From: Clostridia bacterium
Lineage (GTDB): Bacteria; Bacillota; Clostridia; Oscillospirales; UBA644
Assembly: GCA_017623475.1 (NCBI GenBank)
Contig: JAGAPC010000022.1
Location: forward strand, 1 to 49,795
DNA: 49,795 nt
Direction: 5' to 3'
Made by a program: the position numbers and the translations under genes. Positions 21,656-26,707 of this stretch are shown here, in pieces (position 1 is the first letter of the stretch; each line of letters opens with the position of its first letter). Under the pieces are notes generated by a model. The model ran no database searches. It had not been told where the DNA came from and was given only the letters and a program-made list of their open reading frames with translations.

Positions 21656-22945
21656 TTATTCGTCGATGGAGTTCAACGCTTGCGCCAGATCGTCGATCAG
21701 ATCCTGCGCGTCTTCGATTCCGCAGGAGTACCGCACCAGATCGGGGGAGACGCCGGCGGCAAGCAGCTGCTCGTCGTTCATCTGACGGTGGGTAGCGGAA
21801 GCCGGGTGCAGACAACAGGTTCTTGCGTCGGCAACGTGGGTTTCAATGGCGGCGATTTTCAATTCCTTCATGAATTTCTCCGCCCCCTTGCGTCCACCCT
21901 TTACGCCGAAGGAAACGACCCCACAAGAGCCGTTGGGCAGATATTTCCGTGCAAGTTGGTAGTCCTCGTCGCCGGGAAGTCCGGGATATTTCACCCAAGA
22001 AACGTTTTTGTGATTCTGCAAAAATTCCGCTACCGCCTGACCGTTTTCACAGTGACGCATCATGCGGACGTGCAAACTTTCCAAGCCCAAATTCAACAGA
22101 TATGCGGATTGGGGCGCCGGGGTGGCTCCCAGATCCCGCATCATTTGTGCGGTGGCTTTCGTGATGTACGCGCCGCCCTGACCGAACCGTTGGGCGTAAG
22201 TAATGCCGTGATAACTGTCGTCGGGGGTGCAAAGACCGGGGAATTTTTCGGCGTTTGCCATCCAATCAAAGTTTCCGCTATCGACGATACAACCGCCCAC
22301 CGCAGAGCCGTGTCCGTCCATGTACTTGGTGGTGGAATGGGTTACGATATCCGCGCCCCATTCAAAGGGACGGCAGTTGACCGGCGTTGCGAAGGTGTTG
22401 TCGATAATCAGGGGCACGTTGTGGGCGTGGGCTGCCTTGGCAAACCGTTCGATATCCAAAACCCGCAGGGAGGGATTGGAGATGGTCTCCCCGAAGACTG
22501 CCTTCGTGTTGGGACGGAACGCCTGCTCCAATTCCTCGTCGGTGCAGTCGGGGGTGACGAAGGTAAATTCGATGCCCATCTTCGCCATCGTGACGGCAAA
22601 CAGGTTGAACGTGCCTCCGTAAATGGCAGAGGATGCGACCACGTGATCTCCGTGCTCCGCAATATTGAAGACTGCAAAGAAGTTTGCCGACTGCCCGGAG
22701 CAGGTCAGCATGGCGGCAGAACCGCCCTCCATTTCGCAGATCTTTTTGGCGACGGTGTCGCAGGTGGGATTCTGAAGCCGGGAATAGAAATATCCGCTGG
22801 CTTCCAGATCAAAGAGCTTTCCCATCTCCTCGCTGGTGGCGTATTTAAACGTGGTGCTTTGAATAATGGGGATTTGACGGGGTTCTCCGTTGCCGGGGGT
22901 ATATCCCCCCTGAACGCATTTCGTTCCGATGCGATGCTTGTTCAT
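21656..22945 (-). CDS. metY: O-acetylhomoserine sulfhydrylase (PLP enzyme)
   Basis: A 429-residue Cys/Met-metabolism PLP enzyme that makes homocysteine from O-acetylhomoserine and sulfide. Cofactor Lys is K207 in [12 protein letters not shown]; the family pieces [16 protein letters not shown] and the PLP-binding DNTFATP are present. The extended length and central insertion after K207 fit MetY rather than the shorter cystathionine enzymes. TAGGAGG precedes ATG 22945 at 9 bases. It lies 20 bases after the AEC carrier gene and is followed by metA, which supplies its substrate. No SAM riboswitch can fit in the short gaps. Confidence 0.94.
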
Positions 22946-22965
22946 CGTATATTCCTCCTAAAGGG

Positions 22966-23901
22966 TTATTTCAAAAGAAAAGGTAAAAACAGCTCCGACA
23001 TGACCGGAATGGTAATTACGCAGAGCAGCGTGGCGATCAGCACGGTGTTTGCCGCCTGCTTTTGTCCTTGCCCGATCAGCTCCGAGAGGGATTGGATCAT
23101 GCTGGCACAGGGGCAGCACGCCAGCAAAAAGATCGACGCTTTTACGTAGGGCTCTACCGGAATCAGAAGCATGACCGCCAGGGCAAAGAGGGGAAACAGG
23201 ATCATTTTCGTCCCCGACGCCAGGATCGAACGCCAATCGGTGATCAGAGCCTTAAATTCCACCGTGGCAAGGCGCATCCCCAAAATAATCATACAAAGCG
23301 GGGTTGACATCCGCCCCAAAAGCTGAATGGCTTCCGCCACCATCGGCGGGAAATCCCAACCGAAAAGGAACATGGGATAAGCGATAACCATGGAAAGCAC
23401 CAAGGGAACGGTCAAAAGCTTTTTCGGACGGATAAATTTTTTATCCAGGGAGATGACGAACAGCCCCACCGTCCAGGCGACGATATTCATGGTCAGGGAA
23501 AAGATTTGGGAGAAGACCGCCGCAAAGGGATATTCCGCCAAAAAATGCTCCAAAAGGGGCACGCCGAAATATCCTACGTTCCCCAGGGAGGTGGCGATGA
23601 TAAAGACTCTCCAGCGCACGTCGTTGTATTTGCGGCGCAGAATCAGACGAAAGACCAGGATCATCGCCAAAAGCAAAAACAACGTGGCAAAAAAGCAAAG
23701 CCAGATCATTCCGTGCAGCTCGGGGGAGTATTCCGCCCGGGAAAAGGAGTACAGGGAAAGACAGGGGGAGCAGACGTACAACAGAAGCTTTGCAAAGGCG
23801 GGGATCGCCTCTTCCTTGACTGCCTTGGTTTTAATGAATAAAAATCCGGGGATGGCGTAAGCCAGCATCGTGGCAACGCGGATCAGGGTAGGGATAAACA
23901 T
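22966..23901 (-). CDS. AEC-family (auxin efflux carrier-type) transporter
   Basis: A 311-residue membrane protein with about ten hydrophobic segments arranged as two similar halves. Pieces such as TSLGNVGYFGVPLLEHF and TPLCMIILGMRLATVEF are typical of the AEC/BASS-like membrane transport family. Bacterial members move small organic acids; substrate here is unknown, though linkage to metY/metA hints at a sulfur or amino-acid compound. ATG 23901 is preferred: the reading frame continues upstream to 24045, but that part is low-complexity and lies in a repeat element. The ribosome-binding site is weak (AAAGG, 8 bases). The protein ends LPFLLK. Confidence 0.85.
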   Translation of the reverse strand: MFIPTLIRVATMLAYAIPGFLFIKTKAVKEEAIPAFAKLLLYVCSPCLSLYSFSRAEYSPELHGMIWLCFFATLFLLLAMILVFRLILRRKYNDVRWRVFIIATSLGNVGYFGVPLLEHFLAEYPFAAVFSQIFSLTMNIVAWTVGLFVISLDKKFIRPKKLLTVPLVLSMVIAYPMFLFGWDFPPMVAEAIQLLGRMSTPLCMIILGMRLATVEFKALITDWRSILASGTKMILFPLFALAVMLLIPVEPYVKASIFLLACCPCASMIQSLSELIGQGQKQAANTVLIATLLCVITIPVMSELFLPFLLK

Positions 23902-23916
23902 GGGATTACCTTTCAG

Positions 23917-24058
23917 GAATGCAAAATGCAGCCCCTTCCACCATCCTTCGGATGGTCCCCCTTCCCCTCGCCTCTGAGGCGGGGGACGGCAGGGAAATGG
24001 GAGAATGCAAAATGCAAAATAATATCTTAACTCTTCAATCTCCACTCTTCACTCTCAA
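23917..24058. repeat. Composite palindromic intergenic repeat element
   Basis: Exact 14-base direct repeats GAATGCAAAATGCA lie at 23917-23930 and 24003-24016. Between them are two hairpins: ACCATCC-TTC-GGATGGT (23940-23956) and a GC-rich stem centred on CGCCTC-T-GAGGCG (about 23965-23985). After the second direct repeat is a pyrimidine-rich tail with CTCTTCA at 24031 and 24045. I recall similar dispersed elements in related clostridial genomes, but cannot confirm this here. No transposase is present. The element fills the whole gap between two genes and runs into the phosphatase end. Confidence 0.65.
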
Positions 24059-24688
24059 AAGATCAAGTGGGTGTTCCAAGAATAGTTTGGGAGAGTATGG
24101 GGTCAATTCTTCCTTTTCCCGAAATCCCCAGCCGACGGCGACGGGGATCACGCCGGCGTTTTTCGCGGTTTGAAGATCGACCTCCGAATCCCCCACGAAA
24201 AGGGTGGTGTCGGGGTCGGCGTTCAGCTCCTTCATGATTTCAAAAACGCTGTCGGGATGAGGTTTTCTTCGGATTCCGGGGCGTTCTCCCACCGCAAGGG
24301 AAATTTGGGGAAAGTGCTTTTTTGCCAACGCCTTTACCTGCGCGTCTCCTTTGTTGGAAATCACCGCCAGGGAAACGCCTTGCTCCCGCAGAGCGTCCAG
24401 CAGTTCGGGGATTCCCTCGTAGGGCGCGGTCTTGATCGCCGCGTGGGCGTCGTACCAAATCAGATATTGGGCGTGGACGGTTTCGATTTGCTCGGGCGGG
24501 GTGCCCTCGGGGAGAGATTTCGTAAGCAAATGCTTGGATCCGTTGCCCAAAAACCGACGGATTTCCCCCTCGGTTCTCGGAGGATACCCGAAATCCTGCA
24601 GGGTATGATTGACCGCGTCGGTCAAGTCGGAGAGGGTGTTGAGCAGCGTTCCGTCCAAATCAAAAATTGCCGTTTTGAAAAATAACAT
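24035..24688 (-). CDS. HAD-superfamily phosphatase (phosphoglycolate phosphatase-like)
   Basis: A 217-residue HAD hydrolase. Motif I is FDLDGTLLNT (D10, D12), motif II is VISNKGD near residues 109-115, motif III Lys lies in RRKPHPDS, and motif IV is FVGDSEVDLQTAKNAG. This arrangement and size match Gph-like phosphatases with an alpha-helical cap (residues about 16-85). Substrate is not determined. The ribosome-binding site before ATG 24688 is poor. The final seven codons and the TGA stop lie within the adjacent repeat element, so the present C-terminus (RVKSGD) was probably altered by its insertion. It heads the AEC-metY-metA unit. Confidence 0.88.
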   Translation of the reverse strand: MLFFKTAIFDLDGTLLNTLSDLTDAVNHTLQDFGYPPRTEGEIRRFLGNGSKHLLTKSLPEGTPPEQIETVHAQYLIWYDAHAAIKTAPYEGIPELLDALREQGVSLAVISNKGDAQVKALAKKHFPQISLAVGERPGIRRKPHPDSVFEIMKELNADPDTTLFVGDSEVDLQTAKNAGVIPVAVGWGFREKEELTPYSPKLFLEHPLDLLRVKSGD

Positions 24689-24726
24689 ATAAAACCAATT
24701 CTTTACAATTTAAATAATACGAATTT

Positions 24727-24756
24727 AGTATATCATATTTTACCCCCTTTTGTCAA
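24727..24756 (-). promoter_or_regulatory. Promoter of the phosphatase-AEC-metY-metA unit
   Basis: Minus strand: TTGACA (24756-24751), an 18-base spacer and TATACT (24732-24727), with TG one base before the -10. It is 38 bases before the phosphatase start. Confidence 0.8.
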
Positions 24757-24910
24757 GGGTGGAATTTTTGGATTTTGGATATTTTGCACGGCATTTCCAG
24801 TTCCTTTTTGTGCAATTCGCTGAAAAATTACAAAAAAAGAGGAAAGGCAGAAAAATCTGCGTATTAGTAAGATGTAAGGGATTAAAATGTCGAAGGGAGG
24901 AATCAAACCG

Positions 24911-26707
24911 ATGGCTCAATTTTTCGGAGAAGAATTTTTGCATGAATTACGAAGCCGCGTAGATATCGTTTCGGTGGTGGAGCAGTACGTGACGTTGAAG
25001 CGGTCGTCTTCTTCGTCGATGGTGGGGCTTTGTCCCTTCCATAACGAAAAAACCCCCTCCTTCCACGTGGACGGACAAAAGCAGTTGTTTTATTGCTTCG
25101 GATGCGGCGCGGGCGGCGACGCCATTACGTTTTTGATGAAAATGCAAAATATGTCGTACCCCGAAGCCGTCACCTTTTTGGCGGAATCGGTGGGGATGAC
25201 CGTTCCGACCAGGGATACCTTTGACAGCGAAATTACCCAGCTTCGGAAAACGATTTTGGAGATGAACAAAAAGGCCGCCCGGTTTTTCCACGAATGTCTG
25301 TTCCGTCCCGAAGGGCAAAAGGCGCTGGAATATATTACCCGCCGCGGACTTTCCAAAAATACCCTGATCCGCTTCGGCATCGGATATTCTCCCGCCGGCT
25401 GGACGGGACTTTATGAAAAGCTGCGGGAATGGGGCTATAAGGACGAGCAGATCAAGGCCTCCGGACTCGTCATCACCCCCCAGAAAAATGACGGAAGAAG
25501 CCGTATTTTCGACCGTTTTCGGGATCGGGTGATGTTTCCCATCATCGACGCAAACGGAAACGTCATCGGCTTCGGGGGACGTTCCATGGACCCCAACGAT
25601 CCGGCAAAATATCTGAACTCTCCGGAGGTAATCACCTTCCGCAAAGGGAATAATCTGTACGCCTTGAATTACGCAAAATCCACCAAAAAAGATTGTCTGA
25701 TCCTGTGCGAAGGGTACATGGACGTCATCGCCATGCACCAGGCAGGCTTCGACAACGCGGTGGCAGGGCTCGGAACGGCGCTGACGCCGGAGCAGGGAAG
25801 ACTTTTGAAAAAATACACCGATCGGGTGGTGCTTTGCTACGACAACGACGAGGCGGGGCGGAAGGCAACCCAACGGTCGATGCAGGTGTTGTCCTCGCTG
25901 GATCTGAACGTGCGGGTGCTGACCCTCCGGGGCGGAAAGGATCCGGACGAAATCATCAAAAACGAAGGACGCGCCTTCTTCCAGGCGTTGGTGGACGGCT
26001 CGGAAACCGGAATGGATTTCCGCTTGAACGAGATCTTCCGCAAGTACGACCTTTCCATCGACAGCCAGCGGGTTCAATGCTCCAACGAGGTGTTTGACCT
26101 GCTTGCCTCCATCCGCCAGGACGCCCAGCGGGAGATCTACGCTTCCCGCGCCGGAAAACGGCTGGAATTGACCGACGAAACGGTGAAGCGGGAATTGAAC
26201 CGCCGTCTGCGGAATCTGGAACGGCTGCGTAAAAAACAGCAGGAAAAGGAAGAAAGCAACAAGCTTCGCGGCGTGGGAGATCGGATCAATCCCCAACGGA
26301 TGACCTATCTTCGGGCAGCCCGTGCGGAGGAGGATTTAATTTCCGTGCTGTTAGCATTCCCCGAAAAGGCGGAAAAAATTGCGGCCCAGCTTCCCCCGGA
26401 AGAATTTGTCACCGATTTCAACCGCAGGGTTTATATGGCGCTTTTGGAGCAGATCCGTCAGAATCCCACCGCGTCGGAGCCGGGGCTTCTGCTGACCCAA
26501 TATTTCCAGCCCGACGAGATGGGACGCATCGTCAGCTTTATCTCCTCCTGTGAAGCCATTCGGGGGGATGAAAAGGAAATTCTTCGGGCAATCGAGGTTT
26601 TGAAGGAAGAAAAGACGAAAATAGATCGGCGTGCCGCCGGAGGCGACGATGCCTTCGCCGCAAATCTGGAACGGCTGCGCAACAAACGAAAAGAAGCAAA
26701 GGAGTAA
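24911..26707 (+). CDS. dnaG: DNA primase
   Basis: A 598-residue primase that makes RNA primers for replication. The N-terminal CHC2 zinc finger has C41, H44, C62 and C65 ([12 protein letters not shown] ... [10 protein letters not shown]). The Toprim catalytic core includes [18 protein letters not shown] near 260 and [12 protein letters not shown] near 310. The C-terminal helicase-binding region (about 450-598) is less conserved. ATG 24911 has GGGAGG 9-10 bases upstream; the earlier in-frame start at 24887 includes that site. No clear promoter was seen in 24757-24910, though a small hairpin GCAGA-AAAA-TCTGC lies at 24847-24860. rpoD follows after 7 bases. Confidence 0.95.

Follow-up and report, generated by a model that had tools for sequence, protein, structure and literature searches.

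A short heptamer-flanked repeat at the end of a clostridial HAD phosphatase gene and its probable kinship with PF05635 elements

A 139-nt repeat element forms the end of a HAD-family phosphatase gene in the window, by which is meant the whole 49,795-nucleotide stretch of clostridial DNA analysed here. It is probably a short, non-autonomous composite mobile repeat: its ends correspond to the arrays of elements that carry a PF05635 gene, its middle is a palindromic module, and it would have inserted at the end of the HAD gene. Comparison of sequences, the sole foundation of this account, establishes that the element belongs to a repeat family, that it is absent from the site in all four same-genus relatives, that the predicted C-terminus of the phosphatase is altered, that one array is in part identical to that of a PF05635 element and that heptamer arrays are associated with PF05635 genes in several phyla. 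On the best reading it is related to heptamer/PF05635 mobile elements, akin to the intervening sequences of 23S rRNA, and is non-autonomous. It falls short of full membership, as it harbours no gene and its ends are not inverted.

The element and the end of the phosphatase gene

The features of the locus are the following.

22966-23900, minus strand: AEC-type transporter gene (the name is that of the preliminary description, without a family search); start ATG at 23898-23900 by comparison with relatives
23909-23915, minus strand: TGAAAGG beyond the element, matching the stop codon and Shine-Dalgarno-like stretch at the HAD end of the relative G003
23917-24055, plus strand: whole composite element, from the family alignment of copies and the junction compared with G003; boundaries accurate to 1-2 nt
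23917-23930, plus strand: left A-type heptamer array (GAATGCA AAATGCA), from the repeat search and genome pattern matches
23931-24002, plus strand: palindromic module A with two hairpins, from core-pattern matches in the genome and a 12-sequence alignment
24003-24023, plus strand: inner A-type heptamer array, a direct copy of the left array, running into AATAAT
24024-24056, plus strand: T-type heptamer array (TTAACTC TTCAATC TCCACTC TTCACTC type)
24035-24055, minus strand: six new HAD codons (RVKSGD) and new stop, derived from the T-type array by comparison with relatives
24035-24688, minus strand: HAD-family phosphatase gene (PF13419), 217 aa, from the ORF translation and a Pfam match

The preliminary description of this DNA had reported exact direct repeats, two hairpins and a pyrimidine-rich tail, and each of these is borne out: the 14-nt repeat GAATGCAAAATGCA occurs at 23917-23930 and 24003-24016, the hairpins ACCATCCGAAGGATGGT and CGCCTCAGAGGCG form in the minus-strand fold, and the tail, at 24024-24056, consists of degenerate TTCACTC-like heptamers. 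The minus-strand fold of the element has a predicted energy of -56.5 kcal/mol (z -3.1), equalled by one of 200 shuffles. The parts follow one another in the order A-type array, module A, A-type array and T-type array, which matches other copies in the genome. All the arrays of the window copy run in one direction and those on the left and right differ, so that the ends are not inverted copies of one array, and no PF05635 open reading frame is accommodated within the 139 nt. Periodicity of 7 nt is by itself weak in this copy, with a single run at 11 of 14 positions, and the seven other periods tested gave between 1 and 8 such runs in the window; membership of the family rests on sequence identity to it and not on periodicity. 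A search of 22000-26000 against Rfam 15 returned no family match up to an E value of 1, and a scan of 23850-24120 found no terminator-like site. That the hairpins may influence mRNA levels of AEC-metY-metA, as the preliminary description suggested, is thus no more than a possibility.

On the minus strand the HAD reading frame ends at 24035 with LRVKSGD and the stop. It had been proposed that the element supplies the last seven codons and the stop; six codons and the stop (24035-24055) do derive from it, and the seventh, TTG, is ancestral according to the alignment with G003, the nearest relative (73% identity). The codons align as GAC CTT TTG CAG TGA in G003 and GAT CTT TTG AGA GTG in the window. 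The HAD proteins of the four same-genus relatives (G001-G004) end in DLLKEWGN, DLLKNWEA, DLLQ (G003) and QQLL, the RVKSGD tail being present in none of them, and in all four the HAD gene is followed directly by the AEC gene without the element in between. The G003 junction CTTTTGCAGTGAAAGG corresponds in the window to CTTTTG, the element and CCTGAAAGG; followed as far as the AEC start, G003 reads GACCTTTTGCAGTGAAAGG...ATG and the window GATCTTTTG, the element and then CCTGAAAGG...ATG. On this alignment the element lies after the LL codons and ahead of the old stop, whose sequence, together with the AAGG that follows, persists beside the AEC start. The junction is precise only to 1-2 nt, because the relatives compared are other species.

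Read on the minus strand, the tail array contains stops in all three frames, since the reversed T-type unit includes TGA or TAA and a unit of seven, not being divisible by three, shifts the reading frame from one repeat to the next. As a consequence the HAD protein is lengthened by six codons only.

The repeat family and its palindrome

The genome to which the window belongs (G000) comprises 1.57 Mb in 53 contigs and is 84% complete. The element is not single copy in this assembly: blastn yields 33 matches at E<=1e-3, the query itself included. With the tail also missing from orthologues, the central claim of the preliminary description, a palindromic repeat element that supplies a protein C-terminus, is supported; heptamer arrays and a relation to PF05635 did not figure in that description. 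The A-type pattern (A/GAATGCA)n has 78 matches in the genome and the T-type pattern (TCTTCAC)n has 75, with no match in the control of either (that of the A-type being the reversed pattern), and the palindromic core of module A has 26 against 1. The true copy number is probably higher, as several contigs start or stop at such repeats. Within the genus A-type arrays are nearly private to G000, with 64 matches compared with 2, 1, 0 and 0 in G001-G004.

Some arrays stand alone; others accompany module A or a second palindrome termed module B. In one copy (C25:9008-9228; L019 1209-1429) a module-B-like palindrome lies cleanly inside module A, reading CCCCCACC, the inserted palindrome and ACCGTC with no visible duplication, which indicates that the modules insert independently. 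In a 12-sequence alignment the first hairpin of module A retains its pairing where G-C is replaced by A-U (8 and 4 sequences), and two of ten predicted pairs are changed on both sides.

Other copies likewise occur at gene ends: 16 of 35 elements are within 6 nt of a gene 3' end and only one is within 6 nt of a 5' end. This set was drawn from 43 rows by removing one duplicate, merging four pairs and adding C1:80570; C31:4427, C43:17267, C45:40919 and C50:8596 were left out as weak or situated at a contig end. Genes were called with a simple codon-bias script, which makes 5' ends approximate and 3' ends exact. A minus-strand ORF at C4:198-1499 was considered as a second heptamer-written C-terminus in G000 and rejected, given a plus-strand start with a good Shine-Dalgarno site there.

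The palindrome raises the question of whether a conventional transposase, of either the Y1/RAYT or the DDE type, moves the element like any REP or MITE-like repeat, with the heptamer arrays being accidental or merely preferred landing sites. We regard this as unlikely, even though the palindromic core is conserved with pair-preserving changes, a Y1 transposase family is present once in G000 and compact module-A-like palindromes exist without heptamers. The only Y1_Tnp match, at C30:1300-1608 (L033), has in-frame stops and an IS200-like context, and the ends of this IS200-like copy are, by eye, unlike those of the element. Neither inverted ends nor a target-site duplication, both features of MITEs, is visible at the HAD junction, and heptamers flank every full-length copy of module A except that on C47; DDE transposases were outside the search. 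A REP/REPIN system with a RAYT was set aside, as G000 has no full-length Y1 transposase with matching palindromes and only the single broken copy. The compact palindromes occur in G000 (C48, C26 and C52) and in the wider genus and family (L010 in G002, L012 in G005), several of them at contig ends. Given these heptamer-free copies, the palindrome may be a repeat in its own right, for which the arrays are no more than shared landing sites.

PF05635 genes between heptamer arrays

The reading of the element as a relative of PF05635 elements draws on other genomes of the order, in which heptamer arrays often occur as inverted pairs, some of them enclosing a small gene of the 23S_rRNA_IVP family (PF05635). 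G000 itself possesses such a gene (C50:31391-31705), bracketed by inverted T-type arrays in a full element that spans C50:31353-31755. Positions 24036-24056 of the window, a stretch of 21 nt that encodes most of the new HAD tail, are an exact match to the right array of this element at C50:31732. In three further genomes (G038, G119 and G124) PF05635 genes lie between A-type arrays that resemble those in the window. Inverted heptamer pairs separated by approximately 150-200 nt with no evident gene were observed at C13:34642-34883 and C13:17488-17743 in G038 (L130, L131) and at C4:4-241 in G000 (L098); these are candidates for gene-less members with intact ends.

The association was surveyed in Clostridia with the 30 loci of the best matches, one per genome, and the next 40 on the list, of which one was too short, leaving 69. 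A locus was scored as two-sided when an array of period 7 reached at least 12 of 14 positions on both sides. Two-sided arrays of this period are present at 14 of the 69 loci, whereas periods of 4, 5, 6, 8, 9, 10 and 11 give none, and none of 32 control positions 3 kb away shows a two-sided period-7 array. The remaining 55 loci lack two-sided arrays at the set cut. The heptamers vary between genomes, with the two ends of one element resembling each other: mean end similarity is 13.1 for the ends of one element and 9.8 for ends of different elements. Orientation was scored in 16 loci, namely the 14 two-sided ones and two below the cut, L150 (11 and 12) and L168 (14 and 10). In 15 of these the two ends match as inverted copies at no fewer than 12 of 14 positions, and in L146 they are direct.

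These results bear on a second alternative, in which replication slippage expanded the arrays in situ as simple-sequence repeats, the palindromes were added later and nothing is mobile. Among the long simple repeats of many bacteria, heptamer arrays are reportedly the most frequent kind, and slippage has been proposed as their cause in the part of that paper available here (PMC4679880). Growth in place is nevertheless very improbable as an explanation: the same degenerate arrays and order of modules recur at many unrelated sites, the element is missing from this site in all four same-genus relatives, and among the eight periods tested only 7 brackets PF05635 genes. Retention of the element as an RNA-processing or terminator hairpin that sets HAD expression relative to AEC-metY-metA, with the repeats secondary, is scarcely credible: a stable minus-strand fold, a location within a likely operon and the frequency of copies close to gene 3' ends would suit it, but no terminator-like site and no Rfam match came out of the regions searched, the relatives retain the HAD-AEC pair without the element, and purifying selection on any insert would also leave copies after stop codons.

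The same organization is encountered on plasmids. Among all 18 plasmid records with a relative of the C50 protein, which served as an independent sample, two-sided period-7 arrays are present at 15 loci, which come from Cyanobacteriota, Spirochaetota and Chloroflexota, and other periods at none. Thirteen of the 15 pairs are inverted and two (L220, L223) are direct. Below the cut, the Monoglobus and Bernardetia loci (L212, L214) reach 11 on one side and L229 has no array. When every annotated gene in two 50-kb plasmid stretches was used as a control, two-sided arrays were found at 1 of 38 CDS, the PF05635 gene, and at 2 of 32, the PF05635 gene and one other. On the Anabaena plasmid pANACY.01 a DUF4384 gene (L243 18499-19266) lies between inverted heptamer arrays (13 and 14 of 14) and is possibly a captured passenger.

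Sites with and without the element can be compared in two plasmid genes. A DNA cytosine methyltransferase gene, intact in three other records, is interrupted by a PF05635 element on three Nostoc plasmids (L225, L226 and L227, approximately 541-1006); aligned with one of the loci compared (L230), the flanks agree as far as position 540 and do so once more from 1007 onwards, and 328 bp of target sequence are absent. In Anabaena cylindrica PCC 7122 and Nostoc TCL26-01 a PF05635 element is located between cas2 and cas1 (L220 1254-1703, L215 1090-1703), two genes that touch or overlap in two other Nostoc plasmids without it. The predicted Cas1 C-terminus is heptamer-encoded in these two strains, EEVKSQKIKVKREESEEVKSQKVKVLR before the stop compared with HSDFAKISESQKAPLTLVK where the element is absent. 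Judged from the translations, this is the same effect as that inferred for the HAD tail in the window, in a different phylum.

A further array was noticed in a Fibrobacter record (L048 4700-4800), downstream of a HAD gene, where heptamers of GAATATC type are followed by a purine-rich repeat region.

Possible movement and related systems

In the mechanism envisaged, full members would consist of a PF05635 gene between heptamer arrays and short members, such as the window copy, of arrays and palindromes only. The PF05635 protein is inferred to recognise the arrays, for which there are no binding data, and either this protein acting in trans or the DNA or RNA of the array itself could have moved the window copy into the final one or two codons of HAD, after LL and ahead of the old stop; the chemistry of strand transfer is unknown. 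PF05635 proteins are not known to have transposase activity, and for this reason movement by them remains conjecture. It counts against the kinship with PF05635 elements that the window copy is geneless, that its arrays are not inverted and that most clostridial PF05635 loci lack two-sided arrays.

The PF05635 protein is a four-helix bundle, and its relatives, Avd among them, form pentamers and act together with a reverse transcriptase; the PDB structure for the family, 2rld, has five chains. A reverse transcriptase was considered as a partner and rejected, RVT_1 not being found in the 84% of G000 that is covered. Of 147 genomes of the order, 44 have RVT_1; the 16 array-bracketed loci are spread over 14 genomes, nine of which lack it. 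It does not look required, in view of its absence from G000 and from these nine, with the reservation that several of the genomes are incomplete.

The closest described system is the 23S rRNA intervening sequence (IVS) of Coxiella burnetii (PMC4990558, available in part). This selfish element of 428 nt carries an S23p ORF, immediately preceded by tandem heptamers (GACAGAT), and its terminal inverted repeats pair in a 28-bp stem. According to the authors, neither the functionality nor the origin of such elements is clear (PMC4990558). As far as that partial text goes, the plan of a PF05635-type ORF, inverted ends and heptamers is common to the IVS and the heptamer-bracketed PF05635 elements. 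In contrast to the IVS, the latter are intergenic or located in protein genes and have many different heptamers, and the window copy lacks an ORF, lacks inverted ends and is not in rRNA. The cyanobacterial small dispersed repeats and STRR heptamers, reportedly described by Elhai in 2008 and Mazel in 1990, are small mobile repeats that occur together with heptamers in tandem.

Heptamer repeats of unexplained origin, TAACTGA and others, are recorded from Beggiatoaceae, Cyanobacteria and Bacteroidetes, and the portion of that study available here gives no mechanism of spread (MacGregor 2015, PMC4679880). Most of them closely precede start codons and are interpreted there as binding sites for regulators; for the terms searched, the same partial text contains no mention of four-helix, S23, 23S or intervening sequences. 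A precedent for the effect on the protein is provided by an ERIC-type repeat at a gene 3' end, which removed the normal stop and wrote a new C-terminus in the amidase ECA3499 (Delihas 2007, PMC2759123, likewise available in part). ERIC/RU repeats and the palindromic elements of Rickettsia, which lie inside ORFs or at their ends, differ from the window copy in sequence and structure, no heptamer arrays being described for them in the available text (PMC2759123). A literature search of open-licence papers retrieved, besides the Coxiella paper (PMC4990558), none that joins heptamer arrays with four-helix-bundle or IVP genes, and no statement of a general link between the arrays and PF05635 genes.

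A wider reading is that PF05635 genes within mostly inverted heptamer arrays constitute a widespread class of mobile elements without a recognisable transposase or reverse transcriptase, of which the 23S rRNA intervening sequences would be one lineage, and that scattered arrays are largely its ends or gene-less derivatives, rewriting C-termini where they land. This is advanced tentatively, as a proposal that could well fail. If the genes and the arrays do make up one kind of element, the puzzles of the IVS and of the heptamers become one testable question, namely whether a PF05635 protein binds heptamer arrays and moves what stands between them, and the window would present the case of a gene-less copy editing the end of a protein. 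A stop codon carried by the array unit and met in every frame would limit damage at gene ends.

Outside G000, none of the five same-genus PF05635 loci examined has two-sided arrays. A different setting prevails among the loci that do not belong to the array-bracketed set: 32 of 54 PF05635 genes, including L172 and L179 (G000:C41:10842, C40:34464), start 231-481 nt beyond a tRNA or tmRNA gene on the same strand, downstream of it. This is the case for none of the 16 array-bracketed loci and none of the 32 control positions. The PF05635 family therefore has at least two settings. Duplicated tRNA 3' ends behind the PF05635 genes were sought in 27 tRNA-linked loci and discounted, none reaching 15 of 20 positions. 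Immediately after the tRNA, most of these 27 loci have a strong palindrome.
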